A stretch of DNA of 64,000 nt. Source: Saccharothrix sp. ALI-22-I (lineage in GTDB: Bacteria; Actinomycetota; Actinomycetes; Mycobacteriales; Pseudonocardiaceae). This document shows positions 6,448 through 36,883 of the stretch, one piece after another. The notes under the pieces were generated by a model. The model saw only the letters and a program-made list of their open reading frames with translations, was not told the DNA's origin and ran no database searches. The DNA lies in NCBI RefSeq assembly GCF_001984175.1, contig NZ_MTQP01000054.1, forward strand, positions 1 through 64,000, given 5' to 3'. The stretch's first letter is position 1, and each line of letters starts with the position of its first letter. The position numbers were made by a program, and so were the translations under genes.

Positions 6448-6491
6448 TAAAGCCGCCGTCGTAGTCGTCGTCCCAGAAAGCGAAGACCTCC

Positions 6492-14443: not shown

Positions 14444-15814
14444 TCACGGCACCAACTGCCGCAGGTATGACGTCAACACCTCGTCGACGCGGCTCACCAG
14501 CCGGGTCACGGCGGTCGGTTCGTGCCGAACTCCGTCAAGGAACCAGGACATCGACAGCACGCCGTCGTCACGCACCAGCCGGATGTAGACCTGTGGCCGC
14601 GGTTGCAGGACGTCCGGCTCGTGCTTCATGGGATCGCCCGCCATCGTGAGCACCCGACCCCCCTGGTTCGGTTGTCCCAAGCCGCCCATGTTGTTGAAGA
14701 TCAGGCCGAGCCTGTCGGACACCGCCGCCAGTGCCTCGGCGTGCGGACCGTTGGGCGCGCACCAGCGCAGCAGGTGGGCGCCTACGCCGTTGTTCGGCAT
14801 CGCCGTGAGGCTGTCCGCCGTCCGACGCAGGTGCTCGACCACGTCCCCGCCTTCCCTCGGCGGCAGCGCGACGAAGCCACCGAAGGAGAACCAGCCCATG
14901 GTGTGCCTCACCCCGTTGGGGAACACAGGTGTGCCGTCGGCTTTCGTCAGGTCGCGACCGTGGTGCACCACCGCGACCCCGACCTCACCGCCCAACCACT
15001 CGCCCGCGGCCTCGCCGATCGCCGCGAGCACGGTCGTGTGCAGGTCGACGCCCGTCGCGGCGGGCAGTTTCCGCAGGAGCGCCTCGGACCTGCCCCGGTC
15101 GAACCCGAGGTTCACCGACTCCGTCCCGCCGACGGTCTCCGACGTGTAGCGGGTGCGGTCGGTGGGCAGTTCGCTGACCCGTGCCCACCGCGGACCGAGC
15201 CAGTGCGGGATCTCCGCGGTCACCTCGGCCGACGCGGCGTAGTCCCGCAGCGCCCTGACGCACTCGTCGTACGGCGCGCCCTGCGAGAGACGCGGCGCGC
15301 GCCCTTCGGCGAGCGCCCACAGGACGTTCTCCAGATCTCCGACCACCGTCGACAACGACAGGGCGTCGGCCACGAGGTGGTGCACGACCACGAAGAGGCG
15401 CGGCGGTTGCCCCACCCCGAGGTCGAAGTACACGAACCCGGCCAGCGGCCCCTGGTGGACGTGCAGCGTCCTTTGGATCTCGGCGCAGATCCGTCCCACC
15501 GTGGCGGGCTGGTCGTCTTCGGGGCACCGCGACAGGTCGATGCGCCGGAACGGCGGAGGCTCGCTCCGACCGCGGATCTCCTGCCACCACTCCCCCTCGG
15601 TGAGCCGGAATCGCACACGGAGGGCTTGGTGGTGCTCCCAGACCTGGGCCACCGCCGCACGCACCAACCACGTGTCGAAACGCTGGGACAGGCGGAAGAT
15701 GCCGCACAGGTTCCAGTAGTGGGGGTTGATCATGGCGGGGAAGAACTCATGCAGGAAGGCCGCCTGGCTGGGCAGCACCGGCAGCACCGTGCTCGGGTGA
15801 TCCGCTAGCGGCAA
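14444..15814 (-). CDS. Free-standing NRPS-type condensation domain protein
   Basis: A 456-residue protein covering one complete condensation domain and nothing else. The active-site motif HHLVADA is at residues 145-151 (VVVHHLVADALSLSTVV). Other core motifs: VLPSQAAFLHEFFP at the start, HHQALRVRF, and a C-terminal GLIFNNMGGLGQ. It would join an acyl-ACP to an amine or alcohol. With an ACP, an acyl-AMP ligase and an aromatic ammonia-lyase in the cluster, amide formation from an aryl-acryloyl-ACP is the likely reaction. I start at TTG 15814 (SD AGAGGTGG); a start further upstream would overlap the previous gene even more than the present 68 bases. It is last in the minus-strand operon. Confidence 0.85.
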   Translation of the reverse strand: MPLADHPSTVLPVLPSQAAFLHEFFPAMINPHYWNLCGIFRLSQRFDTWLVRAAVAQVWEHHQALRVRFRLTEGEWWQEIRGRSEPPPFRRIDLSRCPEDDQPATVGRICAEIQRTLHVHQGPLAGFVYFDLGVGQPPRLFVVVHHLVADALSLSTVVGDLENVLWALAEGRAPRLSQGAPYDECVRALRDYAASAEVTAEIPHWLGPRWARVSELPTDRTRYTSETVGGTESVNLGFDRGRSEALLRKLPAATGVDLHTTVLAAIGEAAGEWLGGEVGVAVVHHGRDLTKADGTPVFPNGVRHTMGWFSFGGFVALPPREGGDVVEHLRRTADSLTAMPNNGVGAHLLRWCAPNGPHAEALAAVSDRLGLIFNNMGGLGQPNQGGRVLTMAGDPMKHEPDVLQPRPQVYIRLVRDDGVLSMSWFLDGVRHEPTAVTRLVSRVDEVLTSYLRQLVP

Positions 15815-16145
15815 CGCAATCCACCTCTTCGATCGGTTGGGCGGTGCGACGACGCACCTGGTCCTGCGCCGCGCGGCGAAGTCGCTCGTCCACCGACCAC
15901 AGCAGGTAGCTCGTGGTGACGACCCCGGCGCGCATGAGGTGCAGGGCTTCGCGCACGTCCTCCAGGCAGGCCGCGTCCGCTCGCCGGTCGACGGGCCGTT
16001 CGGCGACCGCGACCAGCCGGAGCAGGCTCTCCACCGCCACGACGATGGACTCACCCAGCGGGTCGGCGCGGTCGCACGTGTCCCGCAGGTCGCTCAACAC
16101 CGCTTCGAGGACTTCGGACCGGCGGCGCTCGTCCGCTCGCACCAT
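15747..16145 (-). CDS. Small helical protein of the biosynthetic cluster
   Basis: A 132-residue protein starting MVRADERRRSEVLEAVLSDL with the ribosome site GGAGGTGGAG. The first ~105 residues look all-helical (CLEDVREALHLMRAGVVTTS then YLLWSVDERLRR), and the tail is low complexity. No family is recognised. Its ATG overlaps the aminotransferase stop (TGATG), and its own 3' end overlaps the C-domain gene by 68 bases. It may be a docking or partner subunit of the condensation protein, or the two may once have been fused. Confidence 0.55.
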   Translation of the reverse strand: MVRADERRRSEVLEAVLSDLRDTCDRADPLGESIVVAVESLLRLVAVAERPVDRRADAACLEDVREALHLMRAGVVTTSYLLWSVDERLRRAAQDQVRRRTAQPIEEVDCVAASGSPEHGAAGAAQPGGLPA

Positions 16146-17254
16146 CACTCCACCTCCAGGGCGTTGCGCAGCGACGCCGCGACGACGGGCACGTGCGGCA
16201 GCACGCCCGGGCGGCACGGCAGGGCCAACGACGTCCGCGCCAGGTTCGTGGCGACGGGTAGGTCGAGCGCCGCGAACTCGCGGTACGCGGCGGTCCGGTG
16301 GGGCGGCACCGGGTAGTAGACCTGGGTTCCGATCCCGTCCTGACCCAGCCGTGCCCGGAGGTGGTCACGCCGGTCCGACCGGAGGTTGAAGATGTGCCAC
16401 GACGGCCGGGCCTCGTCCGGCGGCGGCGCCGGGGGCAGCCGCACCCCGCCGGCGCGCAACAGGTCCAGGTAGGCCGACGCGACTCGGTGCCGTTCGGCGT
16501 TGGCGGCGTCCAGGTGGCGGAGCTTGACGCGCAGGACCGCTGCCTGGATCTCGTCGAGCCTGGAGTTCGTGGCGGTCTCGTCGTGGCGGTACCGGGTGGT
16601 CGACCCGTAGTTGCGCAGGCTGCGCACGCGGTCGGCGACGGTCGCGGAGTCGGTGTTGACCACACCGCCGTCACCCAGCGCACCCAGGTTCTTGGTGGGG
16701 TAGAAGCTGAACGCCGCCGCGTCGGCGAGCGACCCGCACTTCCGGCCGCGGTACACGGCGCCGTGCGCCTGCGCGGCGTCCTCGACGAGCAGCAGCGAAC
16801 GGCGGTCGGCGATGCGCCGCAGCCGCGTCATCGGCGCGGGAGTGCCGAACAGGTGCACCGCGATGATCGCGACCGTCCTGGGGCCGATCACCCGTTCGAC
16901 CGCGGCGGGGTCGATGTTGCCCGCTTCGGGGTCCACGTCGACGGGCACCGGCACCGCGCCGACCGCCGACACCGCCAACCACGTGGCGATGAAGGTATAG
17001 GCGGGCACGACGACCTCGTCACCGGGTCCGACGTCGTGTGCGCGCAGGATCAGCTCGATCGCCGACAACCCCGACCCGACGCCCACGGCGTGCGAGGTGC
17101 CGCAGTAGTCCGCCCACTCGCGCTCGAACGCCTCCAACTCGGGCCCCAGGACGAACGCCCCCGCGTCCACCACCCGCGTGACCGCCGCCACGACCTCGTC
17201 GCGGATCGTGGCGTGCTCGGCGACGAGGTCGCGGAACGCGACCGCCTCGCTCAT
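16145..17254 (-). CDS. DegT/DnrJ/EryC1/StrS-family sugar aminotransferase
   Basis: A 369-residue PLP enzyme that aminates keto-sugars bound to a nucleotide. The Schiff-base lysine is Lys188 in FSFYPTKNLGALGDGG; VEDAAQAHGA supplies the PLP-binding Asp, and RLDEIQAAVL and YYPVPPH are further family marks. The start ATG overlaps the upstream isomerase stop (ATGA). Coming right after a 3,4-ketoisomerase, it most likely installs a 3-amino group to give a 3-amino-3,6-dideoxyhexose nucleotide. Position on the sugar is inferred from this context. Confidence 0.9.
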   Translation of the reverse strand: MSEAVAFRDLVAEHATIRDEVVAAVTRVVDAGAFVLGPELEAFEREWADYCGTSHAVGVGSGLSAIELILRAHDVGPGDEVVVPAYTFIATWLAVSAVGAVPVPVDVDPEAGNIDPAAVERVIGPRTVAIIAVHLFGTPAPMTRLRRIADRRSLLLVEDAAQAHGAVYRGRKCGSLADAAAFSFYPTKNLGALGDGGVVNTDSATVADRVRSLRNYGSTTRYRHDETATNSRLDEIQAAVLRVKLRHLDAANAERHRVASAYLDLLRAGGVRLPPAPPPDEARPSWHIFNLRSDRRDHLRARLGQDGIGTQVYYPVPPHRTAAYREFAALDLPVATNLARTSLALPCRPGVLPHVPVVAASLRNALEVE

Positions 17255-17937
17255 CGGGCCGCCACCTCGGTGCGGAAGGTGCCGTAGTCCGTGATGTAGT
17301 CGGACGGGTCGTACTCCGCCGACGACAGCACGACCAGCACCGCGTCGGGTGAGTGCCCGAACTGCGCGGTCCAGACGTAGGGCGGGATCAGCACACCGAC
17401 GCCGGGGCGGTTCAGCACCACCACTTCGCGCCGGCCGCGGCCGTCGTCGACCAGCACCATGCAGCTCCCGGCGGCGCACACGACGATCTCCTCCAGCGTC
17501 CGGTGGGCGTGGTCGCCCCGGTGGCCACCGGGCGGCACGCCGTGGACCAGCAGGCAACGGCGAGCCGTGAAGGGGAGTCCGACGCCGTGTTCGAGGATGA
17601 CCACGCAGCCGCGTTCCTCGTTGACCTCCGGGAGCAGGCGCACGAGCTCCGAGCCGGTGTCGGTCGCGTCCGCCGACTCGGGCACGTCGACCACGGCGGT
17701 GTTGACGTAGGACACCACCCGCGCCGGGTCACCACCGACCACCGCCAGCGCCGGGACGTCCTCGACCACGACCGCGCCCGCGCGCACGACCGCGTCGACA
17801 CCGATCCGCACCCCCGCGCCGAGGGTCGCGCCGTCGCCGATCACGGCTCCGGCCTCCACGCGCACCCCTTCGCCGAGACGGACGTCGCGCCCGATGCGAT
17901 GCGGCGTCACGGCCGCCTGCGCGTCCTCGGTGGTCAT
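17251..17937 (-). CDS. Fusion of a hexapeptide-repeat acyltransferase-like segment and a sugar 3,4-ketoisomerase (FdtA/WxcM-like)
   Basis: 228 residues. Residues ~10-85 are left-handed beta-helix hexapeptide repeats (IGRDVRLGEGVRVEAGAVIG, then AVVRAGAVVVEDVPALAVVG). Residues ~95-228 are a cupin of the WxcM/FdtA type: GVPPGGHRGDHAHRTLEEIV, SCMVLVDDGRGRREVVVLNR and YDPSDYITDYGTF. FdtA-type enzymes convert dTDP-4-keto-6-deoxyglucose to the 3-keto isomer ahead of a DegT transaminase, the very next gene here. The helix part is shorter than in full WxcM/FdtD acetyltransferases, so it may be structural rather than catalytic. ATGA overlaps occur at both ends. Confidence 0.82.
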   Translation of the reverse strand: MTTEDAQAAVTPHRIGRDVRLGEGVRVEAGAVIGDGATLGAGVRIGVDAVVRAGAVVVEDVPALAVVGGDPARVVSYVNTAVVDVPESADATDTGSELVRLLPEVNEERGCVVILEHGVGLPFTARRCLLVHGVPPGGHRGDHAHRTLEEIVVCAAGSCMVLVDDGRGRREVVVLNRPGVGVLIPPYVWTAQFGHSPDAVLVVLSSAEYDPSDYITDYGTFRTEVAAR

Positions 17938-19400
17938 CGGGCGGCGACCGGCTGCTCGGCGAGCCCCGCGGCGCGCAGGTACCTGAGCAGGACCGTCAGC
18001 GCGGCCGGGTCCCGCGCGCCGGTGAGGCAGGCCAGGACGTCGGGGCCCATGCCCACCTCGATGCCCGTCCGGCGGTACAGCGAGCGGGCCTCCTCGCGGT
18101 AGTTGTCGGTCAGGGCGCCGCTGCTGATCTGGCTCGGGACACGGCCGCCCAGTTCGAACCACAGCGACGTCATGTGCAGGGCGTACTCCTCCACCGACTC
18201 CTCGACGCCCCACGAGCGGATCGGTGTTCGCCCCGGGGCGAACACCGGACCGAACAGGCCGGGCGACCCCGCCAGCTCCGCCGCGGCGTGGGCGGCCAGG
18301 GCCGGCGCGGCGTGGAAGCCGTCGCGGTAGGTCCCGCTGAGCACGTACAGCCCCGGCACGGAGGTCCACCCGACGAGCGGGAACCCGTCTAGGCTCACCG
18401 GCCGGTTGCCGACGCGCCACTGCACGATGGTGTGCGCGGAGGCCGTCTCGTCCAACTGGCGGGCCACCTGGTCGAGGATGGCGCTCGCCGTGCCGATCGT
18501 CCCCAGCGTCTGCGGTCGTGGTGACAGCAGGTTGGTGGCGCCGATGTACTCCCGGCCCTCCCCCAGCGGCACCAGGTGCAGACCGCACGCACCGCCCCGG
18601 TTCGGCGTGCGGACCACGGTCTCGAACGACGGCCCGTGCGTGCGCTGGGTGACCAGTGCGACGCCGACGCCGGACAGCATCGGCTGGACCTCGCCCGGGT
18701 CGAGCGCGGTGCGCAGCAGTTCCACCGTCCTCGAGCCCGCCGCCACCACGACCTGCTCCGCTTCCAGGACTTCACCACCGCGCAGCCGGACGCCCGCGAC
18801 GGCGCCCGCGCGCACCACGACTTCCTCCACCGACTCGTCGTGGATCCGGACCCCGGAGCGGCGCAGTCGCTCCTCCAGGAGCCCGATCACCTGGTTGCCG
18901 TCGACGGCTCCCTCACCGCTCATGTGCAGCGCGCGCAGCGCACGGCCGTCCGGCCTGGGGTGGTAACCGGGGATCCGGTCGACCCCCACCTCGCGCCAAG
19001 GCCGCCGGTACTTCCCCAACGCGTCCACGACGGCGTCGTAGTTGAGCGAGTCCAGCGGACCGCCGCAGCCGTTGAGCACGACGTGGGTCGACGGGACGTG
19101 GTGCAACCGCTGTCCCTCGTCCGCCGCGGTCTCGGCCAGTTCGTCGAGGACAGCGGGCCAGCGCTCGTCGGCCAGCAGGCCGATCTCGAACTTGGCCCGC
19201 CCGGCCTCGGTGGCGAACGTGTCCTTGGTGACCTCACCGAAGCAGCCGAGCATCGCGCCGGCCGCCGCGCTGGCGCCGCCGGGGCGTTGCGCTGGTCCGA
19301 CCAGGCTCACCCGGGCGCCGGCGGTGGCGGCGAGGGCTCGGGCGGTGAACAGGCCCAGCGCGCCGTTGCCGACGACGATCACATCAGGCCGATCCGGCAT
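17934..19400 (-). CDS. FAD-dependent amine/amino-acid oxidoreductase (DAO/ThiO-like)
   Basis: A 488-residue flavoenzyme. The dinucleotide-binding motif is VIVVGNGALGLFTARALAAT, followed by the DAO-type GGASAAAGAMLGCFGE. The second nucleotide-contact region is EAEQVVVAAGSRTVELLRTA, and the C-terminal FAD motif is GLYVLSGTYRDGFHAAPALA. The ~90-residue tail beyond residue 400 exceeds the usual family length. Such enzymes oxidise C-N bonds of amino acids or amino sugars; which bond is targeted here is unknown. ATG 19400 has an AAGGGGG site and overlaps the upstream deacetylase gene by 17 bases. Confidence 0.8.
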   Translation of the reverse strand: MPDRPDVIVVGNGALGLFTARALAATAGARVSLVGPAQRPGGASAAAGAMLGCFGEVTKDTFATEAGRAKFEIGLLADERWPAVLDELAETAADEGQRLHHVPSTHVVLNGCGGPLDSLNYDAVVDALGKYRRPWREVGVDRIPGYHPRPDGRALRALHMSGEGAVDGNQVIGLLEERLRRSGVRIHDESVEEVVVRAGAVAGVRLRGGEVLEAEQVVVAAGSRTVELLRTALDPGEVQPMLSGVGVALVTQRTHGPSFETVVRTPNRGGACGLHLVPLGEGREYIGATNLLSPRPQTLGTIGTASAILDQVARQLDETASAHTIVQWRVGNRPVSLDGFPLVGWTSVPGLYVLSGTYRDGFHAAPALAAHAAAELAGSPGLFGPVFAPGRTPIRSWGVEESVEEYALHMTSLWFELGGRVPSQISSGALTDNYREEARSLYRRTGIEVGMGPDVLACLTGARDPAALTVLLRYLRAAGLAEQPVAAR

Positions 19401-20108
19401 TGTCGCCCCCTTCTGGGTTCGGACGCACACCGGCTCGGACCAGGTGCGGGGAGAAGGTCGCTCGGACGAGTTGGAACGCCTCGCCGTAGGCCACGCCGGC
19501 CTGGCTGCCGCGGAACACCGCCAGCGCGTGCACCGCCTCCGCGGAACGGGGTCCGGGGAACGGGCTCACCTGGCTCTCGTACCGGCGGTAGGCGGTGACC
19601 TTGCGGTCGACGGTCGAGGTGATGTCGACCGTCCAGTTGGGACAGAACTGCGGCTCCGCGCCCGGCGCGTTCCAGAACGTCTCCGACAGCGTCTCGTACA
19701 TGGCCACCGCGGCGATGCCCCGGCCACCGCGCACCGGGCGGGTGGCGACCATGCACGCCTCGAACACCCTGCGGTGGTCGACGTGCCGGTCGGGGAAGGG
19801 CATGAACACCAGCTCGGGTGCGACCGCGTCGACCACCCGCTGGACCGCGCTGTTCACCTCGAACGCGGGCGCGTCGGCCAGCAGCACGGCGGGGTGGTCC
19901 AGGAACACGGATTCGCCGACACCGAGCAGTTCATGGGCGCGCGCGGCTTCCCGCAGCGTGCGCTCGTGCACCTGCTCCGGGTAGAGCGGTGGGAGGTGCG
20001 CGGCGACGGTGAGGACGGTCACCGACGCCCCCTGGTCGGCCAGCAACGCGATCGTGCCCCCGACGCCGAGGCACTCGTCGTCCGGGTGTGGTGCTACGAC
20101 CAGCACGT

Positions 20109-20112
<4 letters not shown>
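19384..20112 (-). CDS. PIG-L (LmbE-like) family deacetylase
   Basis: A 242-residue zinc hydrolase. Metal-binding motifs are PHPDDE at residues 8-13 and the HVDHRRV block (DRHVDHRRVFEA). Family members remove N-acetyl groups from GlcNAc conjugates, as in mycothiol, teicoplanin and butirosin pathways. Here it probably unmasks an amino group on a GlcNAc-derived intermediate made by the GT4 enzyme, freeing it for acylation or carbamoylation. GTG start overlaps the carbamoyltransferase stop (GTGA). Confidence 0.88.
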
Positions 20113-21904
<1,792 letters not shown>

Positions 21905-21908
<4 letters not shown>

Positions 21909-22201
21909 GACCCGTCGGCGAGGCGCTGCCGGAGGTACTCCGCCGTCTCCCCGACGGTCCGGTCGGCGAGACCGAGGATCTCCTCGTCGGAGAACTGGGT
22001 CTGGAACCGCTGCTCGACGCGGATGCCGAACTCGATGATCATGACGGAATCGAGGTTGAGGCCGTCCTGCCCGAGCTTCGTGGCCGACGTCAGCTCACCC
22101 TGCGACACCGGCCACCGCAGGTCGACCTCGATGATCTTTCGGATTTCGTGCTCGATGTCCGGATCCGTGGACACTGTCGCCACCCTTCGGTTCTGGGTCA
22201 T
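21905..22201 (-). CDS. Acyl carrier protein
   Basis: A 98-residue discrete carrier protein. The phosphopantetheine site is Ser52 in DGLNLDSVMIIEFGIRVEQR, on the usual four-helix scaffold. ATG 22201 is coupled to the upstream ligase (ATGA); a GTG further in (SD GAAGGGTGG) would give a more typical ~87-residue ACP. Directly after an acyl-AMP ligase gene, it most likely carries the acyl group activated by that enzyme to the free-standing condensation domain. Confidence 0.9.
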
Positions 22202-23694: not shown

Positions 23695-23719
23695 CCCGAC
23701 CTCCTCGGGCGGTGGTTGG

Positions 23720-26166: not shown

Positions 26167-26394
26167 TGGCCCCCCTGCTGTCGCGAGAATGCGTGCTCGC
26201 CGAGAACGATCAACCAGCGGCGGTGCGCGCACACGTCACCTAAAGAGGCGACTGGAGAATCCCGACCAGCGGGCCTAGTCGTGCCCAGGCGCGACCGCCG
26301 TGCGTGTCCCCGTAACGGGGGACAGGCACGGCGGCCGAAGACCGGCAAGAGTCGTCACCGTGATCAAGGCTGATCGGGAACGGGGCGACTTGAC
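26167..26394. promoter_or_regulatory. Divergent promoter region of the biosynthetic cluster
   Basis: These 228 bases separate the two divergent arms and should hold both promoters. No consensus pair is obvious. A very strong hairpin occupies 26295-26334 (listed separately), 60 bases ahead of the ammonia-lyase start. Confidence 0.5.
26295..26334. repeat. Large hairpin in the divergent promoter region
   Basis: The arms at 26295-26311 and 26318-26334 are inverted repeats, pairing at 16 of 17 positions around a six-base loop (GTAACG). It could act as a terminator or attenuator in the leader of the ammonia-lyase mRNA, or insulate the two arms from each other. Confidence 0.6.
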
Positions 26395-27885: not shown

Positions 27886-29513
27886 ACGTCCTGGGGATCG
27901 GCGGTTCCGTCCACGACTTCTCCTGCTGCCTGGTGGTGGATGGAACCGTGGTCGTCGCGATCGAGGAGGAACGGCTTTCCAGGGTCAAGTACCACCCCCT
28001 GGGGCGCATCTCCACCGACCAGTTCCGGTTGCGGGGCATCCAGTACTGCCTGGACGCGGCGGGCCTGACCCTCGACGACGTCGACCAGGTGGTCGGCAAC
28101 GACCTGATATTCCCGGCGGTGCTGCGCGGTCTTCCCGACGTGCGGTTGATCAACCACCACCTCGCCCACGCGGCGTCGTCGTTCTACCTGTCCCCGCACT
28201 CCGAGGCGGCCGTCCTGGTGATGGACGGGTTCGGTTCGATGACCGACGGCCGGGCCGAGACCACGAGCCACTTCCTCGCCGGGGACGACGGCATCCGGCT
28301 GCTGCACTGGGACACCGGCGCCGTCGTGCGCAAAGATGAGCGGCTGCCGTTCAGCTGGGCCAACTTCGACTTCGTGGAAGACTCCGCCGGTGTCCTCTAC
28401 AGCCACGTCACCGACCTCATCGGCTTCGGGGAGTACGAAGAGGGCAAGACGATGGGGTTGGCCGCGTACGGCAAGGCCGACGATGCGGCCGAACTCGGCC
28501 GCATCGTCGCGGTGGACGACGAGGGGCGCATCCGGTTCGGCCGTGCCGAACGCGACGCGCTCGACGCGGTGCACCACTCGATGATGGCGGTGGCGCGCAC
28601 GGACGCCGACGTGTTCGCGGTCCGGGCCGCCTTCGCCGCGGCGGTCCAGTCGTTGCTGGAGGAGGTCGTGCTGCGTCAGGCACGGTCCATCCACGAGCGC
28701 ACGGGCGCCGACGTGCTGTGCGTGTCAGGTGGCGTGTTCATGAACTGCCCGGCCAACTACCGGCTGGTGACCGAAGGGCCGTTCCGGGAGGTGTTCCTGC
28801 ACGGCGCGTGCGGTGACAACGGCACCAGCATCGGCGCCGCGCTGCACGGCTACCACGCCGGTTCGGGCCTTCATCGGACGCCGATGACCCGACCTGTCAC
28901 CTACACCGGTCGCACTTACGGCGAGGACGACCACGTCCGCGCGCTGGAAGAACATCGGGACCGGCTCGTGTTCCGGCGCTCGCCCGACATCGCCGCGGAG
29001 ACCGCCGAGGTCTTGGCCGCGGGCGGTGTCGTGGGGTGGTTCCAGGGCGGTTCGGAGTTCGGCGCACGGGCTCTCGGGAACCGCAGCATCCTGGCCGATC
29101 CGCGCGACCCCGGCATCAAGGACAGGCTGAACCTGGTGGTCAAAGGACGTGAGGCGTTCCGGCCGTTCGCCCCGTCGGTGCTCTTCGAGCGGCAGGGCGA
29201 GTACTACGACATCACGGTGGAATCCACGCACATGTGCCTCAACGCGATGAGCCGCGACGACGGCCCGGCGTTGCCCGGTGTCACCCATGTCGACGGCAGC
29301 GCCCGCATCCAGTCGGTGCGCGCCGACGTCAACCCCCTCTACCACCGGTTGATCTCCCGCTTCGCCGAGCTCACCGGTGTCGGCGTCGTCCTCAACACCT
29401 CGTTCAACGAGCGGGAACCGATCGTGGAGACACCGGAACAGGCCGTGGACTGCTTCCTGCGAACCGATATCGACCGGCTCGCGCTCGGCCCGTTCATGGT
29501 CTCGAAGGCATGA
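27882..29513 (+). CDS. Carbamoyltransferase, NodU/CmcH family (2)
   Basis: 543 residues. N-domain: VLGIGGSVHDFSCCLVVDGT, the histidine cluster LINHHLAHAASSFYLSPH, VMDGFGSMTDGRAETT and LCVSGGVFMNCPANYRL. C-domain: SEFGARALGNRSILADPRDP and LNTSFNEREPIVETPEQAVD. It belongs to the NodU/CmcH-like branch and is distinct in sequence from copy 1, implying a different acceptor. ATGA overlaps link it to the ammonia-lyase before it and the ABC transporter after it. Confidence 0.9.
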   Translation: MNVLGIGGSVHDFSCCLVVDGTVVVAIEEERLSRVKYHPLGRISTDQFRLRGIQYCLDAAGLTLDDVDQVVGNDLIFPAVLRGLPDVRLINHHLAHAASSFYLSPHSEAAVLVMDGFGSMTDGRAETTSHFLAGDDGIRLLHWDTGAVVRKDERLPFSWANFDFVEDSAGVLYSHVTDLIGFGEYEEGKTMGLAAYGKADDAAELGRIVAVDDEGRIRFGRAERDALDAVHHSMMAVARTDADVFAVRAAFAAAVQSLLEEVVLRQARSIHERTGADVLCVSGGVFMNCPANYRLVTEGPFREVFLHGACGDNGTSIGAALHGYHAGSGLHRTPMTRPVTYTGRTYGEDDHVRALEEHRDRLVFRRSPDIAAETAEVLAAGGVVGWFQGGSEFGARALGNRSILADPRDPGIKDRLNLVVKGREAFRPFAPSVLFERQGEYYDITVESTHMCLNAMSRDDGPALPGVTHVDGSARIQSVRADVNPLYHRLISRFAELTGVGVVLNTSFNEREPIVETPEQAVDCFLRTDIDRLALGPFMVSKA

Positions 29514-31327
29514 CCGCGGTGGGGCCCGGTCGGGTGGCACGTGTGGTCGGTCGTCTGCGCCGCCGCGGCGAGGTGCGCTTCTTCGAGGTGTTGGGACGCG
29601 CGGCACCGGGGCTCGCCGGGGTCTGGTTCGGGCTGCTCGTGGTCCGGGCGGTGCTCCCGGTGGCGTTCGTGCTGTCGATGAGCGGCGTCGTGGCCGCCGT
29701 GATCGGGGGCGAGGGCGTCGCCGGGCGGCTGGTCGTGCTGGGTGTGGTGTTCATCGCGATGCACGTGACGCCACCGCTGTACGCCGAGGTGGGGCTGAAC
29801 CTCGGCGACCGGACGGCCGACTGGCTGAACCAGCGGCTGATGGCCATCACGATCCGGCCGGAGGGCATCGCCCACCTGGAACGGTCGGATCACGCGTCGC
29901 AGTTGGTCCGGGCCAGGGACTTCGACCTCGCCCTGTCCGGGCCGCCGATGTCGGTGGCGATGGGGTTCATCGCGTCCGGCCTGGTGCAGTTGGCGAGCGG
30001 CATCGGCATGTGCGCGTTGCTGTTCGGCTACCACTGGTGGGTGCCGCCGCTGCTGGGCGGGGCGTGGGGCGCGACCCACTGGCTGTTGCGGGACAGCGCG
30101 GTGTGGCGCGGCAGGCTGTCCGACGAGGCGACCTCCGCGCAGCGCGAGGCCGAGTACCGCTACCGGGTCGCGGTCGACGCGCCCGCCGCGAAGGAGATCA
30201 GGATCTTCGGGCTGGCGGACTGGCTGGTCGAGTCGTTCGCCACGCAGCGCCGCCTGCTCATGCGCCTCAGGCTGGAGGCGACCCGCCTGGACCGGCGTGG
30301 GCTGGGGTGGTCGCTGCTCGTGCTGACCGTCGCCCACGTGCCGGTCTTCGTCGCGCTCGCCGGTGACATCACCGGCAACCGGGTCGGCTTGGCGCAGGCC
30401 ATGGTGTTCGTGCTGGCCACCATCGGCGCGAGCGGCATCGCCTTCGGCGGGCTGAACTCCGCGCTGTCGATGTGCGGCCAGGTCGTGGACAGCGTGTTCA
30501 CCCTCGAACGGGACATGGCGCCCGACGGCGACCTGTCCTCCGGCACCCGGTCGGCCGACGGCCTGCCGGCGCACGAGATCCGGTTCCGCGACGTCCACTT
30601 CGGCTACGGTCCCGACGGGCAGGACGTGCTGCGCGGTCTGGACCTGGTCATCCCCGCGGGCAAGGCCGTGGCCGTGGTGGGGCTCAACGGTGCGGGGAAG
30701 ACGACGATCGCCAAGCTGCTGGCCCGGCTCTACGACCCCGACCGGGGTGCGGTGGAGGTCGACGGTGTCGACCTCCGCGAGTTCGACATCGCCGACTGGC
30801 GGCGCCGCCTCAGCGTCATCTACCAGGACTTCGTCCGGTTCGAAGCGTCCCTGCGCGACAACGTCAGCCCGGCCGGCGCCCCTGAGGAGTTCATCACCGA
30901 GGCGTTGGCCACCGCCGGCGCGGCCGGGGTCGCCGACCTCGACGCGGTGCTCGGCCGGGGGTACGACAACAGCACGGAGCTGTCGGGCGGGCAGTGGCAG
31001 CGGGTGGCCATCGCCCGGGCCCTGTGCGCGGTGCGCATGGGCGCGGGCGTCGTCGTGCTCGACGAGCCGACCGCCCAGATCGACGTGCGCGCGGAGCTGG
31101 AGCTGTTCAACCGCCTGCTCGCCGCGACCGAGTCGTGCACCCGGATCCTGGTGTCCCACCGCTTCGCCACCGTGCGCAAAGCGGACCTCATCCACGTGGT
31201 GGAGCACGGGCGCGTGGTCGAATCCGGCACCCACGACGAGTTGATGGCGGCCGGTGGCCGCTACCGGACGATGTTCGACCTCCAAGCCGCCCGGTTCGAC
31301 GAGGAGCAGGATGTCCCGACACAGTGA
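29510..31327 (+). CDS. ABC exporter, fused membrane and ATPase domains (1)
   Basis: 605 residues, a half-transporter of the type I exporter fold. Residues ~20-330 hold about six membrane segments. The ATPase domain follows: Walker A GLNGAGKTTIAK, signature LSGGQWQRVAIARAL, Walker B VVVLDEPTAQID, and the H-loop VSHRF. ATG 29510 overlaps the carbamoyltransferase stop. With the next gene it probably forms a heterodimeric exporter for the cluster product and so may confer self-resistance. Confidence 0.88.
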   Translation: MTAVGPGRVARVVGRLRRRGEVRFFEVLGRAAPGLAGVWFGLLVVRAVLPVAFVLSMSGVVAAVIGGEGVAGRLVVLGVVFIAMHVTPPLYAEVGLNLGDRTADWLNQRLMAITIRPEGIAHLERSDHASQLVRARDFDLALSGPPMSVAMGFIASGLVQLASGIGMCALLFGYHWWVPPLLGGAWGATHWLLRDSAVWRGRLSDEATSAQREAEYRYRVAVDAPAAKEIRIFGLADWLVESFATQRRLLMRLRLEATRLDRRGLGWSLLVLTVAHVPVFVALAGDITGNRVGLAQAMVFVLATIGASGIAFGGLNSALSMCGQVVDSVFTLERDMAPDGDLSSGTRSADGLPAHEIRFRDVHFGYGPDGQDVLRGLDLVIPAGKAVAVVGLNGAGKTTIAKLLARLYDPDRGAVEVDGVDLREFDIADWRRRLSVIYQDFVRFEASLRDNVSPAGAPEEFITEALATAGAAGVADLDAVLGRGYDNSTELSGGQWQRVAIARALCAVRMGAGVVVLDEPTAQIDVRAELELFNRLLAATESCTRILVSHRFATVRKADLIHVVEHGRVVESGTHDELMAAGGRYRTMFDLQAARFDEEQDVPTQ

Positions 31328-33113
31328 CGAGCTACCACCCGCGCTGCGCTCCCTGTGGCGTTCGCTCAAGTTCGGCTACCGGGTAGAGCCGAAGTTCCTC
31401 GTGCTGTCGTGCGGGTTGACCATCTGCGGCGTGATCCCCGACGTGGCCGTGGTCTTCGCCCTCAAGCTGCTCGCCGACGGCGTGGCCAGGGGCGATCGCA
31501 CGCTGGCGTACACCGCCTGCCTCGTGGTGGGTGCGCTGACGGTGGCCATCTGGCTGTTGTCGGTGGGCTCCGGACGGGCGGTGCAGGGGTTCGCCGACCG
31601 GATCACGGTGGCCTTGGAGTCGCACGTCGCGCACCTCCAGGCCGCGGCGCCCGGACTGGCCCACCACGAACGCCCCGAGTACCTGGACCGGCTCGCGGTC
31701 CTGCGCAACCAGGTGTTCGCGCTCAACCACCTCTACGGCTCCTTGTTCTCGACCGCCGCCTCCGTCGTCCGCGTGGCGCTGACCCTGGCGCTGTTGGTCT
31801 CGGTCCACCCGGCGCTGGCGCTGCTCGGCTTGGCGGCGCTGCCGGGCGTGGCGGTGTCCGGGTGGCGTGCGGAGAAGATCAGGACGGCCCAGGAACGAGC
31901 CGCCCAGCACGGCCGGCGCGCCCGCCACCTGTTCGTCCTGGCGACCACCGCCGGACCGGCCAAGGAACTGCGCGTGGCCGGGCTCGGCGACGTGGTGCGG
32001 GCCCGGCAGCGCGAGGCCCGCGAGCGCTGGTACCGGGCGGTGTCGGCGATGCGGTGGCGCGGCGCCGCCTGGCAGTCGGCGACGTGGCTGCTGTTCGGCC
32101 TCACCTACGGTGCGGCGCTGTGGTACGTCGCCGTCGCGCTGAACGCCCCCGCCGGGGACGTGGTGATCGTGCTCGTCGCGGGCAGCCGGGTGTCCCAGTA
32201 CGTGGCGGACCTGGTCGCGGAGGCGAACTTCCTGCGAGGTGACTGGCTGGGCGCGTCCCGCCGGTTGGCCTGGCTGGAGGACTACGCGGCCGACCAGCAA
32301 CGCGACCAGGGCAGCGGGACGCCACCCGAGCGCCTGCGCACCGGCATCCGCTTCGAAGGTGTGTCGTTCACCTACCCCGGCACCGACCGGCAGGTCCTGC
32401 GCGACGTCGACCTGACCCTGCCCGCCGGGACGACCGTGGCGGTGGTCGGCGAGAACGGTGCGGGCAAGACGACGTTGATCAAGCTCCTGTGCCGGTTCTA
32501 CGAGCCGACCAGCGGCCGGATCACGATCGACGGCGACGACCTCGCCGGCTACCACGCCCGGGCCTGGCGGGAGCGGATCACCGGCACCTTCCAGGACTTC
32601 TTCCGGTTCGAGTTCACCGCCAAGCGCTCGGTGGGCGTGGGCAACCTGCCGGTGGCGGACGACGCCGCCGCAGTGTGGCCCGCCATCGACCGCGCGGGGG
32701 CGCGCGGCGTCGTGGACGGTCTGCCGGCCGGCCTGGACACCCGCTTGGGCGCCACCTGGGACGGCGGTGTGGACCTGTCGTTCGGCCAGTGGCAGAAGAT
32801 CGGTGTCGCCCGCGGTTCCATGCGCACCGATGCCTTGGTGCGCGTGCTGGACGAACCCACCTCCGCCTTGGACGCGGAGACCGAGCACGAGCTGTTCGAG
32901 CGCTACGCGGAGGAAGCCGCCTCGGACTCGAGGCACCGGACAGGTGCGATCACCGTCCTGGTGTCCCACCGGTTCTCGACAGTGCGGATGGCCGACCTGA
33001 TCGTCGTGCTCAACGGCGCGGAAGTGCTCGAGGTCGGCAGCCACGAAGAGCTCATGGCGCGTGGAGGCACGTATGCGGAGCTCTACAGCCTGCAAGCCCG
33101 TTCATACCACTGA
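31311..33113 (+). CDS. ABC exporter, fused membrane and ATPase domains (2)
   Basis: 600 residues, partner half-transporter. It has an N-terminal membrane domain, then Walker A GENGAGKTTLIK, Walker B VRVLDEPTSALDAE and H-loop VSHRF. Its signature motif is LSFGQWQK rather than the LSGGQ form of gene 1, so the two ATP sites are unequal, as in heterodimeric exporters with one degenerate site. ATG 31311 (SD GAGGAGCAGG) lies inside the end of the first gene, overlapping by 17 bases, which favours balanced synthesis. Confidence 0.88.
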   Translation: MSRHSDELPPALRSLWRSLKFGYRVEPKFLVLSCGLTICGVIPDVAVVFALKLLADGVARGDRTLAYTACLVVGALTVAIWLLSVGSGRAVQGFADRITVALESHVAHLQAAAPGLAHHERPEYLDRLAVLRNQVFALNHLYGSLFSTAASVVRVALTLALLVSVHPALALLGLAALPGVAVSGWRAEKIRTAQERAAQHGRRARHLFVLATTAGPAKELRVAGLGDVVRARQREARERWYRAVSAMRWRGAAWQSATWLLFGLTYGAALWYVAVALNAPAGDVVIVLVAGSRVSQYVADLVAEANFLRGDWLGASRRLAWLEDYAADQQRDQGSGTPPERLRTGIRFEGVSFTYPGTDRQVLRDVDLTLPAGTTVAVVGENGAGKTTLIKLLCRFYEPTSGRITIDGDDLAGYHARAWRERITGTFQDFFRFEFTAKRSVGVGNLPVADDAAAVWPAIDRAGARGVVDGLPAGLDTRLGATWDGGVDLSFGQWQKIGVARGSMRTDALVRVLDEPTSALDAETEHELFERYAEEAASDSRHRTGAITVLVSHRFSTVRMADLIVVLNGAEVLEVGSHEELMARGGTYAELYSLQARSYH

Positions 33114-33167
33114 GACGCCGCCGATCACGGCCGGCAGGTGCCACCGCACCGGTTGAGGAGCTTCAAG

Positions 33168-35207
33168 ATGGACGCGCACTTCCCCGCCGAACCTCCCGCT
33201 GTCGTAGAGCACTTCCTGTCCGTCTACATGGAGGCGCCGGACATCACCGCGCTCACGGTGCAGCGCCACGACCACTGCGCCGCGCTGTGGCGGCGCGAGG
33301 GCGACGTGATCACGCTCCAGCGGTACTGGGAGTTCGAGCGCGTCACCGGCTTGAAGCACCACCGCCTGCCGCTGCGCGAAGCGGAGGACGCGCGCGCGTT
33401 CCTCGACGTGCTGCTCGCCGAGGAAGGCCTGTCGCTCGACGACATGTCCGAGGTGTGGGGCACGCCCCACCTGGAAACCGACCGGGGGTTCGCCGGTCGC
33501 CAGGTGGGCAAGGGGCAGTCCGTCCACAGCACGTCGCACCTGTTCTCCGCGATCGGGCTGGACTGGCGGTTGCTGCGGGAGGGCCGGATCCTCGGCTTGG
33601 CCCTGGACGCCGGTCCGGACCTCCAACTGGACGAGGACCTGCCCGAGTCGATCTACTCGGGCTGCATCGTCGACCGGGGCACGATCACGACCTTCCCGGT
33701 CGAGTCGCCCGCGCCGCTGTGGATGCTCGCCCGCGGCCGGTTCAAGCAGGAGGAGGGCACCCTCATGGCGCTGTCCTCCGCCACCACGTGCACGGTCGAC
33801 TTCGACGTCGAATCCCTGGTCGACACGTTGCCGTTCTGGACGCAGGCCGAGGTCTTCCACAGCTCGGACGTGCTGCTGGACCGACTCGTGGACGTGGTGA
33901 CCGCCGCACTGGCCACCCCTGGAGGTCGTGTCCTGGCCCGGTACGACGAACGGTTCGACCACGGGGAGAACCTGCGCGGTGCGGTGATGAAGCTGGTGGA
34001 TCGGGCTTCCTGGGTGGTGGTGGACCGCAACATCGAGCACATCAGGGAGGAGCACGGCCTCGACCTGACCGAGATGCACTTGGCGATCTGCGGCGGCTTC
34101 GCCCTCAACTGCCCGAACAACACGCGGCTGATGAACAAGTACGGGTTCGCCTCCCTGTCGGCGCCACCGTGCGCCAACGACGGCGGGCAGGCGTTGGGGC
34201 TGGGCATCATGGCCCTGCACGACCGCGGATTGACCGGCCGGTCCGACTTCCGCCTGGCCGACGCGTTCCACGGCCGCGAGATCCGTGACCTGGACCGGGC
34301 GCTGGAGGAGTTCGGGGCGGTCGTCGACGACGTGTCGCCGCTCGACCTGGAGCAGGTGTGCGCGGACCTGGTCGACCACCCGATCGCCTGGGTGCAGGGT
34401 CGGGCCGAGATCGGGCCGCGTGCGCTGGGGCACCGCAGCCTGCTCGGCGACCCCCGTTCCGCACGGACCAAGGACATCCTCAACGAGGTGAAGTTGCGCC
34501 AGTGGTGGCGTCCCGTGGCGCCGATCGTGCTGGAGGAGCACGTCGGCGAGTGGTTCCGGGAGAACCGCAGCTCGCCGTACATGCTGGAGGTGTTCGCCAG
34601 TCGCGACGAGGTGCGAGGTGCGATACCCGCGGTGCTGCACTTGGACGGAACGGCGCGGATCCAGACGGTGGGACCCGACGACGACCCGGTGCTGCGGCGG
34701 CTGCTCACCACGTTCCACCACCGCACCGGCGTGCCGATCCTGGCCAACACCTCGTTGAACGACAAGGGTGAGCCGCTGGTGGACACAGCGGCCCAGGTGC
34801 TCAACTTCTGCGTCCGGAAGGGCGTGCCCGTCGCCTACGTCGGTGACGTGCGCATCCGTCTGCGTCCCGACGCCGATCAGGTGCTGCGTCTCGACGGCCC
34901 GCACCCCCGTGCCGCCGAACGCTTCGAACACGACGCCGAGCGCTGGCAACAACTGTGGTCGGAGTGGACCGCCCTCGGGTTGAGCCCGGAGGCGTTGTTC
35001 GTCTACTCGTGGAACCCGCGGCTGCGCAACACGGTCGACCCGTTCACCTCCGCCGGTCAGCGGGTGCTGCGCATCGCGTCGTCCACGTTCATCGACCGGG
35101 TCAGCAGTCGTGAACGCCGATTCGTGCACCACCTGACCCACTTCTACGGCCCCGAGGCGAATCCCCTGCTCTCCGACTCGGCGGAGAGCCTCATCGGCGG
35201 CGGCTGA
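33168..35207 (+). CDS. Divergent carbamoyltransferase-like protein (3)
   Basis: 679 residues, the longest and most divergent of the three. The Kae1-like part keeps HSTSHLFSAIGLDWRLLREG as histidine cluster and ICGGFALNCPNNTRLM. The YrdC-like part keeps EIGPRALGHRSLLGDPR and ANTSLNDKGEPLVDTAAQVL. The N-terminus lacks the usual GxxxxHD start motif, having LTVQRHDHCAALWRREGD instead. A ~100-residue C-terminal extension follows residue ~580 (EHDAERWQQLWSEWTALGLS). ATG 33168 has TTGAGGAGC upstream. It may act on an unusual acceptor or have lost one half-reaction. Confidence 0.78.
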   Translation: MDAHFPAEPPAVVEHFLSVYMEAPDITALTVQRHDHCAALWRREGDVITLQRYWEFERVTGLKHHRLPLREAEDARAFLDVLLAEEGLSLDDMSEVWGTPHLETDRGFAGRQVGKGQSVHSTSHLFSAIGLDWRLLREGRILGLALDAGPDLQLDEDLPESIYSGCIVDRGTITTFPVESPAPLWMLARGRFKQEEGTLMALSSATTCTVDFDVESLVDTLPFWTQAEVFHSSDVLLDRLVDVVTAALATPGGRVLARYDERFDHGENLRGAVMKLVDRASWVVVDRNIEHIREEHGLDLTEMHLAICGGFALNCPNNTRLMNKYGFASLSAPPCANDGGQALGLGIMALHDRGLTGRSDFRLADAFHGREIRDLDRALEEFGAVVDDVSPLDLEQVCADLVDHPIAWVQGRAEIGPRALGHRSLLGDPRSARTKDILNEVKLRQWWRPVAPIVLEEHVGEWFRENRSSPYMLEVFASRDEVRGAIPAVLHLDGTARIQTVGPDDDPVLRRLLTTFHHRTGVPILANTSLNDKGEPLVDTAAQVLNFCVRKGVPVAYVGDVRIRLRPDADQVLRLDGPHPRAAERFEHDAERWQQLWSEWTALGLSPEALFVYSWNPRLRNTVDPFTSAGQRVLRIASSTFIDRVSSRERRFVHHLTHFYGPEANPLLSDSAESLIGGG

Positions 35208-35707
35208 GCCAATCGCCTGACGCCACCGTTGCCATCACCGGTCCGACAAGATGATCATCCGCAGCGGCTACACATTCCTCATGGGCAGCACGACAAATTT
35301 CGCGCAGGCAGTCGATGTGGCACCCGCATTGGCGCAGACGCCGGGCATGGTGATCGAGGGCTGATCTGCCCGCCGGCGGGATAGGCAGCCGCGGCCGATC
35401 GGTAGCCCTCGACCCGCCCGACTCCGGTGCCGCCACCACCCGCAGTCGCAGCACTTCCCACACGGCTGGCAACGGACCGATCACCGCCGCCCGCCTCATC
35501 GACCGCACCGACACACCCAGCCGATTCGAGCGGTGAGAGGGGTGTTCGTCGACCTGATCTGCCTGCCCCGCGGGGCGCTGCGACGTCCCGTTCGCCATGC
35601 TCCGCAACAAGACCTGCGCAGGATCTGCTGTCACCTGCCTGGCGACCCACCACTGGAGACCGCCGTCACCACAACGCTCGACCGTTGACGCTGCCCGCAC
35701 GCCTGCG
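35208..35707. other. Spacer downstream of the cluster, mostly eroded mobile DNA
   Basis: No intact gene is visible. A degenerate IS630 5' fragment lies at 35398-35465 (listed separately). The rest has no recognisable product on either strand. Confidence 0.5.
35398..35465 (-). mobile_element. Relic of an IS630 transposase 5' end
   Basis: The minus strand reads WEVLRLRVVAAPESGGSRAT, parallel to REVLRLRVVAALEAGRVEGY in the intact IS630 transposase at 12-13 kb. At DNA level GGTAGCCCTCGACCCGCCCG is shared by both. Only this short segment survives. Confidence 0.7.
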
Positions 35708-35716
35708 TACGGTCGG

Positions 35717-35746
35717 TATATATCGGGGGGCAGTACGAAACTTTCG
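35717..35746 (+). promoter_or_regulatory. Promoter and palindromic operator upstream of the LuxR gene
   Basis: GGTATATATC at 35715-35724 gives a convincing -10 element (TATATA). CGAAACTTTCG at 35736-35746 is a perfect 11-base palindrome downstream of it, positioned to block or activate transcription. It resembles the GAAAGTTTC palindrome before the xylanase gene. Confidence 0.45.
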
Positions 35747-35757
35747 AACGGGGATCA

Positions 35758-35897
35758 TGAAACACGACCGCCCTGACGAACACCGACTTCTTCGGCACCC
35801 CTTCATTGAGGGTTCGTCGAGGTCGATGCCGCGCTCTGCGGCTTTCGGAAACAGAGTTCGCGACACACGGTCGGAGTCGATTGATGGTCAACGTTGA
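35758..35897 (+). CDS. 46-codon ORF leading into the LuxR gene
   Basis: ATG 35758 (upstream GAACGGGGATC) opens MKHDRPDEHRLLRHPFIEGS and ends at TGA 35895-35897, 12 bases inside the LuxR gene. It lies between promoter and regulator, so it may be a coupled leader or simply a chance frame. No family likeness. Confidence 0.3.
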
Positions 35898-36459
35898 TCT
35901 GTTCGCCAGCATGCCCGTCTACCTCTACGGATTGACCAGTGCGTTGAGTCGTCGCGGGCTTCGGGTGATCGGCGCGAAAGAATCAGCTGCGGAAGGTTTG
36001 TCCCCGCATTCCGATGTCGTTGTGGTAGACGTCAACGTGCTTCAGGGCTGCGATCCCGCCGACTTCATCACCGCTGCGGCCACCGTGGCACCGGTCGTGC
36101 TGATGGTCGACGAATTGGAGGTCGATTCGTCAGACGTCTACACAGGCGCAGGTGTGCGCGTCGTGACCAGCCTGAGGACCGGTATCGACGACCTGGTCCA
36201 ATTGATCACCGACACCGCCGGGACCGGGTGCCACGAACACGCACCCGAAGACCCCAAATTTCCCACTCTGTCACAACGCGAAGAACAAGTCCTGCGCCAC
36301 GTCGCACGGGGACTCACCCACGGCCAGATCGCCAGGATTCTCGGCATCAGCCAGCACACGGTGGACACCTACATCAAGCGCATCAGAACAAAGATGACGT
36401 TGGGCAACAAGGCCGAACTGACCCGAGCGGCCTTGGAGTACGAGGCAGCCCTCACCTGA
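35884..36459 (+). CDS. LuxR-family transcriptional regulator
   Basis: 191 residues. The N-domain (VNVDLFASMPVYLYGLTSAL, HSDVVVVDVNVL, VVLMVDELE) is receiver-like but lacks a clear acidic pocket, so it is probably an atypical receiver that is not phosphorylated. The C-terminal LuxR HTH is clear: TLSQREEQVLRHVARGLTHG then QIARILGISQHTVDTYIKRI. ATG 35884 is chosen over upstream frames by domain start. Located 680 bases past the last cluster gene in the same direction, it is a candidate pathway regulator. Confidence 0.8.
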   Translation: MVNVDLFASMPVYLYGLTSALSRRGLRVIGAKESAAEGLSPHSDVVVVDVNVLQGCDPADFITAAATVAPVVLMVDELEVDSSDVYTGAGVRVVTSLRTGIDDLVQLITDTAGTGCHEHAPEDPKFPTLSQREEQVLRHVARGLTHGQIARILGISQHTVDTYIKRIRTKMTLGNKAELTRAALEYEAALT

Positions 36460-36871: not shown

Positions 36872-36883
36872 TCCGGTTATCGG

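Follow-up and report, generated by a model that had tools for sequence, protein, structure and literature searches.

A probable glycocinnamoylspermidine-type gene cluster, in a smaller and amidine-bearing version, from Saccharothrix sp. ALI-22-I

The glycocinnamoylspermidines are old broad-spectrum antibiotics, among which cinodine targets DNA gyrase and coumamidine represents a cinodine-type antibiotic that carries an amidine. In the open literature searched, the papers that name the class concern chemistry or a genome announcement, and no published biosynthetic genes for it were found there (subscription literature and MIBiG lying outside that search). The question raised by the locus described here is whether 16 genes from Saccharothrix sp. 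ALI-22-I, which combine a tyrosine-type aromatic amino acid lyase, a free-standing condensation (C) domain, aminosugar genes, three carbamoyltransferases and an unusual flavoenzyme, belong to that class. They lie within the first 64,000 nucleotides of contig NZ_MTQP01000054.1 (the entire analysed stretch, hereafter ‘the window’, on contig C51 of a 10.3-Mb genome). The analyses indicate that they probably direct the synthesis of a compound of this class and form a smaller version of such a cluster, marked by an amidine; the predicted product would be a small coumaroyl-spermidine glycoside bearing a 2,3-diamino-2,3,6-trideoxyhexose, carbamoyl groups and an amidine.

The evidence that carries this assignment comes from Nocardia iowensis NRRL 5646, which has been published as a producer of glycocinnamoylspermidine antibiotics. 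When a 60-kb stretch of its genome was searched with tblastn (E<=1e-4), 12 of the 16 window genes were matched, within a locus at approximately 5.134-5.171 Mb (G752:C1), a genome that holds the N. iowensis lyase P0143 at 100% identity. The homologues comprise the lyase (57% identity), the ligase (39%), the acyl carrier protein (ACP; 29%), the dehydratase (44%), the glycosyltransferase of family GT4 (37%), the aminotransferase (41-42%, to two genes), the PIG-L deacetylase (55% and 40%), both halves of an ABC exporter (43-46%) and all three carbamoyltransferases, each of which best matches a different counterpart of its own (58, 51 and 41%). An earlier note on this DNA had described the product as ‘distantly like’ these antibiotics; the likeness is upheld by this comparison, while the distance is not, given that 12 homologues reside in one locus of a documented producer. 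The compound from N. iowensis is presumably LL-BM123/cinodine.

Gene content, conservation and related loci

The cluster spans approximately 14.44-36.46 kb of the window and consists of two divergent arms that meet near 26.3 kb. Read outward from that point, the minus arm encodes the dehydratase, GT4 enzyme, ligase, ACP, carbamoyltransferase 1, PIG-L enzyme, flavoenzyme, FdtA-type isomerase, aminotransferase and C domain, and the plus arm encodes the lyase, carbamoyltransferase 2, two ABC exporter halves, carbamoyltransferase 3 and a LuxR-type regulator. The individual genes are as follows (supporting matches in brackets; FAD, flavin adenine dinucleotide; MIO, 4-methylideneimidazole-5-one).

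14444..15787, minus: free-standing C domain, 447 residues, with HHxxxD as HHLVAD (Pfam Condensation 2.9e-30; relatives P0002, 47%, and in G006, 34%)
16145..17254, minus: DegT/DnrJ-family sugar aminotransferase, probably of C3 type (best PDB matches 2oga and QdtB)
17251..17937, minus: short hexapeptide segment fused to FdtA/WxcM-type sugar 3,4-ketoisomerase (Pfam; RGDHAH motif)
17934..19400, minus: FAD enzyme, N-formimidoyl/N-iminoacetyl synthase family, as BD-12 Orf1 and the fortimicin enzyme (PDB match, active-site residues)
19384..20112, minus: PIG-L type de-N-acetylase (Pfam; HPDDE and HVDH motifs)
20109..21908, minus: carbamoyltransferase 1, TobZ/NovN/GdmN family (Pfam, N. iowensis match)
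21905..22201, minus: acyl carrier protein (Pfam, NCBIfam; LNLDS in sequence)
22198..23694, minus: acyl-adenylating ligase, read as coumarate-activating (Pfam; best PDB match feruloyl-CoA synthetase)
23720..25096, minus: GT4 glycosyltransferase (Pfam, NCBIfam)
25093..26232, minus: UDP-GlcNAc 4,6-dehydratase, read as CapD/PglF/WlaL group (best PDB match WlaL)
26395..27885, plus: MIO aromatic amino acid lyase, read as tyrosine type (Pfam; NLVHH, ASGDL)
27882..29513, plus: carbamoyltransferase 2 (Pfam, N. iowensis match)
29510..31327, plus: ABC exporter half 1 (Pfam, NCBIfam, N. iowensis match)
31311..33113, plus: ABC exporter half 2 (Pfam, NCBIfam, N. iowensis match)
33168..35207, plus: carbamoyltransferase 3, divergent N-terminal domain, HSTSH kept (Pfam, N. 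iowensis match)
35884..36459, plus: LuxR-type regulator (Pfam)

Pfam matches above the curated cut-offs were obtained for the Condensation, DegT aminotransferase, hexapeptide and FdtA, DAO (the FAD enzyme), PIG-L, ACP, AMP ligase, GT4, Polysacc_synt_2 and aromatic lyase families, and for two ABC ATPases and three carbamoyltransferases; the third of these exceeds its cut-off for the C-terminal domain only, its divergent N-terminal domain scoring 22.7 bits against 24. Start and stop codons overlap by four nucleotides at the junctions of aminotransferase and FdtA, FdtA and FAD enzyme, PIG-L and carbamoyltransferase 1, the latter and ACP, ACP and ligase, GT4 and dehydratase, lyase and carbamoyltransferase 2, and the latter and the first ABC half. 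Likely start codons lie inside the listed open reading frames for the C domain (15787, from P0001), aminotransferase (17254), FdtA (17937), FAD enzyme (19400), carbamoyltransferase 2 (27882), ABC halves (29510 and 31311), carbamoyltransferase 3 (33168) and LuxR (35884).

All 16 genes recur in another strain of the genus (G016, probably Saccharothrix sp. NRRL B-16348), whose alignment to the window comprises 20,754 columns at 96.6% identity and some 830 more at the right end at 92.5%, the common block stopping at 36484, just past the LuxR gene. Because DNA identity per gene is 93-99% and the ratio of nonsynonymous to synonymous substitution rates (dN/dS) is 0.11-0.42 across the 16 genes, they appear to have been kept as functional proteins; the cluster is real, and its genes are under purifying selection. 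The earlier note's account of two divergent, tightly overlapping arms and of the activities that it named is thus borne out by the Pfam matches, the overlaps and this conservation, including its tyrosine-type lyase (which has the expected histidine and ASG motif) and its ACP with ligase, free-standing C domain, GT4, PIG-L and three carbamoyltransferases.

Two further loci resemble that of N. iowensis. In 60-kb stretches, own counterparts of 10 of the 16 window genes were found in another Nocardia genome (G789), with carbamoyltransferase 3 counted as a miss since it matches only the counterparts of the other two, and of 11 of the 16 in Crossiella equi (G040:C1, approximately 0.767-0.802 Mb, matching the C. 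equi lyase P0148 at 100% identity); the ACPs of both were detected with the N. iowensis ACP as query. The divergent core, in which GT4 and dehydratase face lyase and carbamoyltransferase 2, is kept in all three loci, in each of which a further GT4-type gene separates dehydratase from GT4.

The distribution of the lyase is in keeping with these comparisons. Its 57% relative in N. iowensis is among the best 120 of 312 matches, and lyases at E <=1e-120 occur in 2 of 150 Nocardia genomes, namely N. iowensis and G789. A tree of 66 rows (63 best database matches, the window, G789 and the strain's own HutH) places the window lyase in a clade of 34 rows, supported at 100/97, together with those of N. 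iowensis, G789, Crossiella, Polymorphospora lycopeni and two metagenome contigs; 26 of the 34 rows come without known gene context, and the very long HutH branch and an arbitrary root limit what the tree says about direction. A grouping of the contigs that bear the FAD enzyme as a lyase group of their own was considered and does not hold when the unlabelled rows are included, P0140 lying on a separate branch and P0149 on the N. iowensis side. The scatter of these rows suggests that two versions of the cluster may have exchanged genes, and no single origin is claimed for either. A contrast is offered by other lyases of the genus, at L067-L071 (five stretches of 20 kb each, shorter than the 60 kb used for N. 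iowensis). Apart from the lyase, no more than two window genes were matched at any of these loci: L067 has an aminotransferase and, weakly, a dehydratase, L070 and L071 have a ligase, and L068 and L069 have none. Within the same clade, the lyases of Allostreptomyces psammosilenae (P0129, 69% identical to that of the window) and Phytoactinopolyspora halotolerans (P0133, 59%) may mark further clusters of the class.

The flavin enzyme and the amidine it may form

The FAD enzyme, which was missing from the inventory of activities in the earlier note, is the most telling and distinctive gene of the cluster. Its top match in the PDB is N-formimidoyl fortimicin A synthase (E 2e-80, as against 2.5e-12 for glycine oxidase); identity to this BD-12 Orf1-type enzyme, of which a partial chain was aligned, is 39% across 439 residues, and its length of 488 residues fits the 491 of Orf1. 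According to the study of Orf1 (PMC10156733), residues R342, R368, H284 and Y294 bind and oxidise glycine, and C281 and E426 carry an N-O-S adduct and its transfer, being needed for product formation and not for glycine oxidation. Equivalents of C281, H284, Y294, T298, R342, R368 and E426 are all present in the window enzyme, which therefore contains the complete set of glycine-oxidation residues as well as both transfer residues. In an alignment of 121 rows (the window and the best 120 of 821 matches), C281, H284, R342, R368 and E426 are invariant.

The acceptor side differs, in that E312, E313 and F316 of Orf1 correspond to G, T and A, so that the residues that steer decarboxylation (E312 and F316) are replaced. 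Position 312 is E in 12 of the aligned rows, G in 47 and A in 49, and position 316 is F in 74, Y in 33 and, rarely, A (nine rows). E312 is thus variable and, to judge from the alignment, no feature of the family as a whole, and the two positions would bear on which amidine is formed. The same study (PMC10156733) reports that E312A or F316A substitutions in Orf1 make the iminoacetyl compound the main product with glycylthricin; the G and A found naturally at these positions lead us, therefore, to lean toward an N-iminoacetyl amidine.

It might instead be supposed that the protein is a plain glycine, amine or sugar oxidase that forms no amidine. Its best NCBIfam model is the glycine oxidase ThiO (107.5 bits, below a cut-off of 250.8), and the loss of the three acceptor-side residues is compatible with such a role; the disparity between the two PDB matches, the agreement in length with Orf1 and the strict conservation, in the 121 aligned rows, of the two transfer residues, which Orf1 requires for product and not for glycine oxidation (PMC10156733), make a plain oxidase quite improbable.

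A metagenomic relative (P0011, 58%) is fused to the hexapeptide and FdtA segment, and lyase and FAD enzyme were found on contigs of equal size (8160106, 26479 and 22863) from P. lycopeni and two metagenomes; these are probably the same contigs, and the pairing of the two genes seems to be recurrent. In P. lycopeni the lyase is 67% and the FAD enzyme 65% identical to that of the window. The FAD enzyme alone is no marker of the cluster, as relatives of 46-48% identity at five loci (L027-L031) lack the rest of it, having two or three weak ligase or adenylation-domain matches each (24-29%) and, in L031, one weak C-domain match; near relatives of approximately 40% (L032, L033) no other window gene was matched. 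The five Orf1-like enzymes near ligase- or adenylation-domain-like genes, each in a different genome, perhaps point to iminoacetyl or formimidoyl peptides.

Aryl acid, amide, sugar and flanking genes

The lyase carries the tyrosine-type histidine (F in 2o78 and H in 2o6y, the latter of which we take to be RsTAL, with the residue presumably His89) together with the ASG motif, and it clusters with the N. iowensis lyase. Its nearest PDB entry is 2o6y (200.6 bits), with NLVHHLA common to both, followed by histidine ammonia-lyases and tyrosine aminomutases (176 bits). For the ligase, feruloyl-CoA synthetase scores highest (294 bits), ahead of oxalate- and malonyl-CoA ligases (279 and 274) and 4-coumarate ligase (253); since the oxalate and malonyl enzymes outscore the last of these, sequence does not settle the substrate, and it is chiefly the lyase motif, together with the resemblance to the N. 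iowensis locus, that leads to the coumaroyl assignment.

Ligase, ACP and free-standing C domain, the elements expected for loading of an acyl group onto a carrier and for its transfer to an amine, are all present in the window and again in the N. iowensis locus. For the C domain itself, a protein search returned six matches including its own, with P0002 (47%) as the sole close relative among the 7997 candidates that were scored (an upper limit of the search), a contig scan of genomes found one locus (in Saccharothrix sp. NRRL B-16348), and profile searching across 297 genomes from the family found standalone members in three (G000, G016 and G006), the other listed matches sitting in frames of at least 1018 residues. 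A structure model (mean predicted local distance difference test score, pLDDT, 56) matches C and epimerization (E) chains of non-ribosomal peptide synthetases at TM-scores of approximately 0.35 and adds little; VibH was absent from the 15 PDB sequences matched and from the best 50 of 584 fold matches. The N. iowensis C domain is conserved at 58% in Crossiella, and the free-standing C domain of G789 is a weak match (38 bits) that is missed with the N. iowensis domain as query. A different cluster in G006 (G006:C1, approximately 38-57 kb; L015, L013) combines the 34% C-domain relative and a related ABC pair with genes for an acyl-CoA dehydrogenase, a pyridoxal phosphate-dependent decarboxylase, an ACP, PIG-L and DegT enzymes and a pentapeptide repeat protein; the decarboxylase was considered as a polyamine gene and dropped, its nearest NCBIfam models (exosortase-associated and diaminopimelate decarboxylases) both being below cut-off.

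No polyamine gene lies within the cluster, as the earlier note had said, although the statement does not extend to the genome, which encodes SpeD (122 bits) on contig C53 and, directly next to it, a spermidine synthase (60.7 bits). This synthase shares 58% identity with the corresponding portion of a SpeD-SpeE fusion in N. iowensis, and it is one of three PF01564 candidates in the genome; PF17284 (Spermine_synt_N) was not found there. A supply of spermidine, a feature of the class, is accordingly encoded by this adjoining pair.

Several observations weigh against the assignment to the glycocinnamoylspermidines. Since all 25 genomes of the genus that were compared contain speD, spermidine would be available from ordinary metabolism and is not specific evidence. 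The FAD enzyme, FdtA and LuxR genes were unmatched in the stretches from N. iowensis, G789 and Crossiella alike, and we infer from gene content that the N. iowensis locus makes the antibiotic. For one glycosyltransferase and three carbamoyltransferases to suit a small product, carbamoylation would have to occur at two or more sites, or a carbamoyltransferase would have to serve another role. The window C domain was unmatched by tblastn in the N. iowensis stretch and has no BLAST similarity to the C domain there (E 2.4), so that the amide step would involve enzymes of the same family, for which no orthology is claimed. Finally, the reaction of the lyase and the substrate of the ligase are not fixed by sequence: NCBIfam ranks histidine ammonia-lyases first (317 and 295 bits), then tyrosine 2,3-aminomutase (216) and the flexirubin tyrosine ammonia-lyase (195), with all of these models below their own cut-offs and so not discriminating. 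This ranking led us to grade the assignment slightly lower, and a beta-tyrosine product slightly higher.

The last two points each nourish an alternative. The saccharomicin aglycone of Saccharothrix espanaensis contains taurine, and the C domain might likewise join the coumaroyl group to a non-polyamine amine, whether taurine, an amino acid or an amino group on the diaminosugar, as the want of a polyamine gene in the cluster and the dissimilarity of the two C domains would allow. Tyrosine ammonia-lyase, taurine and saccharomicin are all named in the genome paper of S. espanaensis (PMC3469384). In gene content and in the order of the core, however, the remainder of the cluster agrees with the locus found in a glycocinnamoylspermidine producer, and the best of five lyase loci in G007 (9,360,653 bp, possibly S. 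espanaensis) shows no match to other window genes within 20 kb, which leaves such an amine unlikely. Less probable again is that the MIO enzyme acts as a tyrosine 2,3-aminomutase, its acyl unit being beta-tyrosine as in enediyne pathways and the product no cinnamoyl amide: the NCBIfam order and the aminomutases among the PDB relatives favour it, and the tyrosine-type motif is not known to separate ammonia-lyase from aminomutase activity, but 2o6y scores higher than those aminomutases and shares NLVHHLA, the ligase is closest to feruloyl-CoA synthetase, and the lyase groups with that of the cinnamoylspermidine producer, all of which makes this very unlikely. A coumaroyl-spermidine product therefore remains the preferred assignment.

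An aminosugar pathway, a glycosyltransferase and carbamoyltransferases, as expected for the class, are encoded with fewer sugar genes than in N. iowensis. The dehydratase scores 178 bits with WlaL (PglF type) and 135 with 2gn4, presumably FlaA1, its best NCBIfam model being the inverting PseB (169 bits, cut-off 408); the ketoisomerase retains its RGDHAH motif; and the aminotransferase is nearest to the C3 aminotransferases 2oga (which we take to be DesV) and QdtB, its best NCBIfam models being C4 enzymes, all below cut-off. Because of these dehydratase and aminotransferase matches, together with the PIG-L enzyme and the 3,4-ketoisomerase, a 2,3-diamino-2,3,6-trideoxyhexoside is indicated; the amino-deoxysugar route proposed earlier is retained, and its plain 3-amino-6-deoxysugar gives way to a sugar that, by these likenesses, is more likely a 2,3-diamino-2,3,6-trideoxyhexose derived from UDP-GlcNAc. 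A paper on a 2,4-diacetamido sugar (PMC8040287) lends no support here and plays no part in this reading.

Transposase genes lie on either side of the cluster, at 12042-13082 (DDE_3), 36877-37782 (Mutator type, with only profile positions 115-338 matched) and 47836-48813 and 52970-54310 (both DDE_5); the first appears to be a later insertion in this strain, since the left flank shared with G016 lacks a counterpart. A pentapeptide repeat protein is encoded 14 kb to the right of the cluster (50656-51777, minus), and such proteins also occur within the N. iowensis, G789 and Crossiella loci; that of the window, which is only 32% alike over 155 residues and unmatched in a 60-kb stretch of G016, may be unrelated. 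Farther out are plant-polymer genes at 972-7661 (two pectate lyases, a GDSL esterase, LPMO_10 and a GH10 xylanase) and an 857-residue frame at 60473-63046 (plus) with a B12-binding-like stretch, below cut-off, and an aldo/keto reductase domain.

Proposed route and comparison with known systems

The order of steps, the acceptor amine, the sugar stereochemistry, the attachment points, the roles of the carbamoyltransferases and the activity of the product are predicted. The MIO lyase would convert tyrosine to p-coumarate, which the ligase would adenylate and load onto the ACP, and the free-standing C domain would couple the ACP-bound coumaroyl group with a soluble polyamine, for which spermidine made by the host SpeD and SpeE is the likeliest candidate, much as VibH acts with norspermidine. 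Dehydratase, 3,4-ketoisomerase and aminotransferase would together convert UDP-GlcNAc to UDP-2-acetamido-3-amino-2,3,6-trideoxyhexose, the GT4 enzyme would place this sugar on the phenol, and the PIG-L enzyme would free its 2-amine. The three carbamoyltransferases would attach carbamoyl groups, giving ureido functions where the site is an amine or carbamates where it is a hydroxyl. The FAD enzyme would oxidise glycine and pass an N-iminoacetyl or N-formimidoyl group to a free amine, and the paired ABC proteins would export the product.

For the amide step, the closest working analogy is provided by VibH-type synthases, in which a free-standing C domain is thought to couple a carrier-bound aryl acid to a soluble polyamine (PMC7962358); the likeness is one of working only, and no orthology is claimed. 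The amidine chemistry, based on an N-O-S bridge in a flavoenzyme, is described on streptothricins and aminoglycosides in the study of Orf1 (PMC10156733), while the window enzyme sits in a cinnamoyl cluster.

Compared with the window, the N. iowensis locus has additional genes for a nucleotide-sugar dehydrogenase, epimerase-family proteins, a GT28-type and a second GT4-type protein, a second PIG-L enzyme, a second aminotransferase, an oxidoreductase, a formyltransferase, PhyH and YcgG family proteins, an amidinotransferase-like protein, SpeD (with the SpeD-SpeE fusion nearby) and a pentapeptide repeat protein, along with its own free-standing C domain, where the window instead has the FAD enzyme, FdtA and LuxR. 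The Crossiella locus is close to the N. iowensis type, with amidinotransferase-like and sugar-branch genes, and the window C domain is also unmatched in its 60-kb stretch. The amidinotransferase-like protein of N. iowensis, for which the window has no match and contains the FAD amidine enzyme instead, shows a weak NCBIfam dimethylargininase match (6.9e-4) and no Pfam match, and its naming is a reading of sequence rather than proven; as a class-defining gene it is not established. A structure model of it (pLDDT 38) was not used.

It may be, and we offer this tentatively, that the window represents a minimal glycocinnamoylspermidine line in which a guanidine-type decoration has been replaced by a glycine-derived N-iminoacetyl amidine through N-O-S-bridge flavin chemistry, and that the genes underlying the class are those of this locus and of its counterparts in Nocardia and Crossiella. 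If so, the G and A at positions 312 and 316 would make the window enzyme a natural iminoacetyl synthase, the N-formimidoyl and iminoacetyl synthases would reach beyond aminoglycoside-type antibiotics, and the VibH amide step would have a coumaroyl-ACP counterpart. The comparison of the two kinds of locus yields a candidate locus in a documented producer, a core shared with it, and a branch point at which a guanidine-type decoration in the one would correspond to a glycine-derived amidine in the other.

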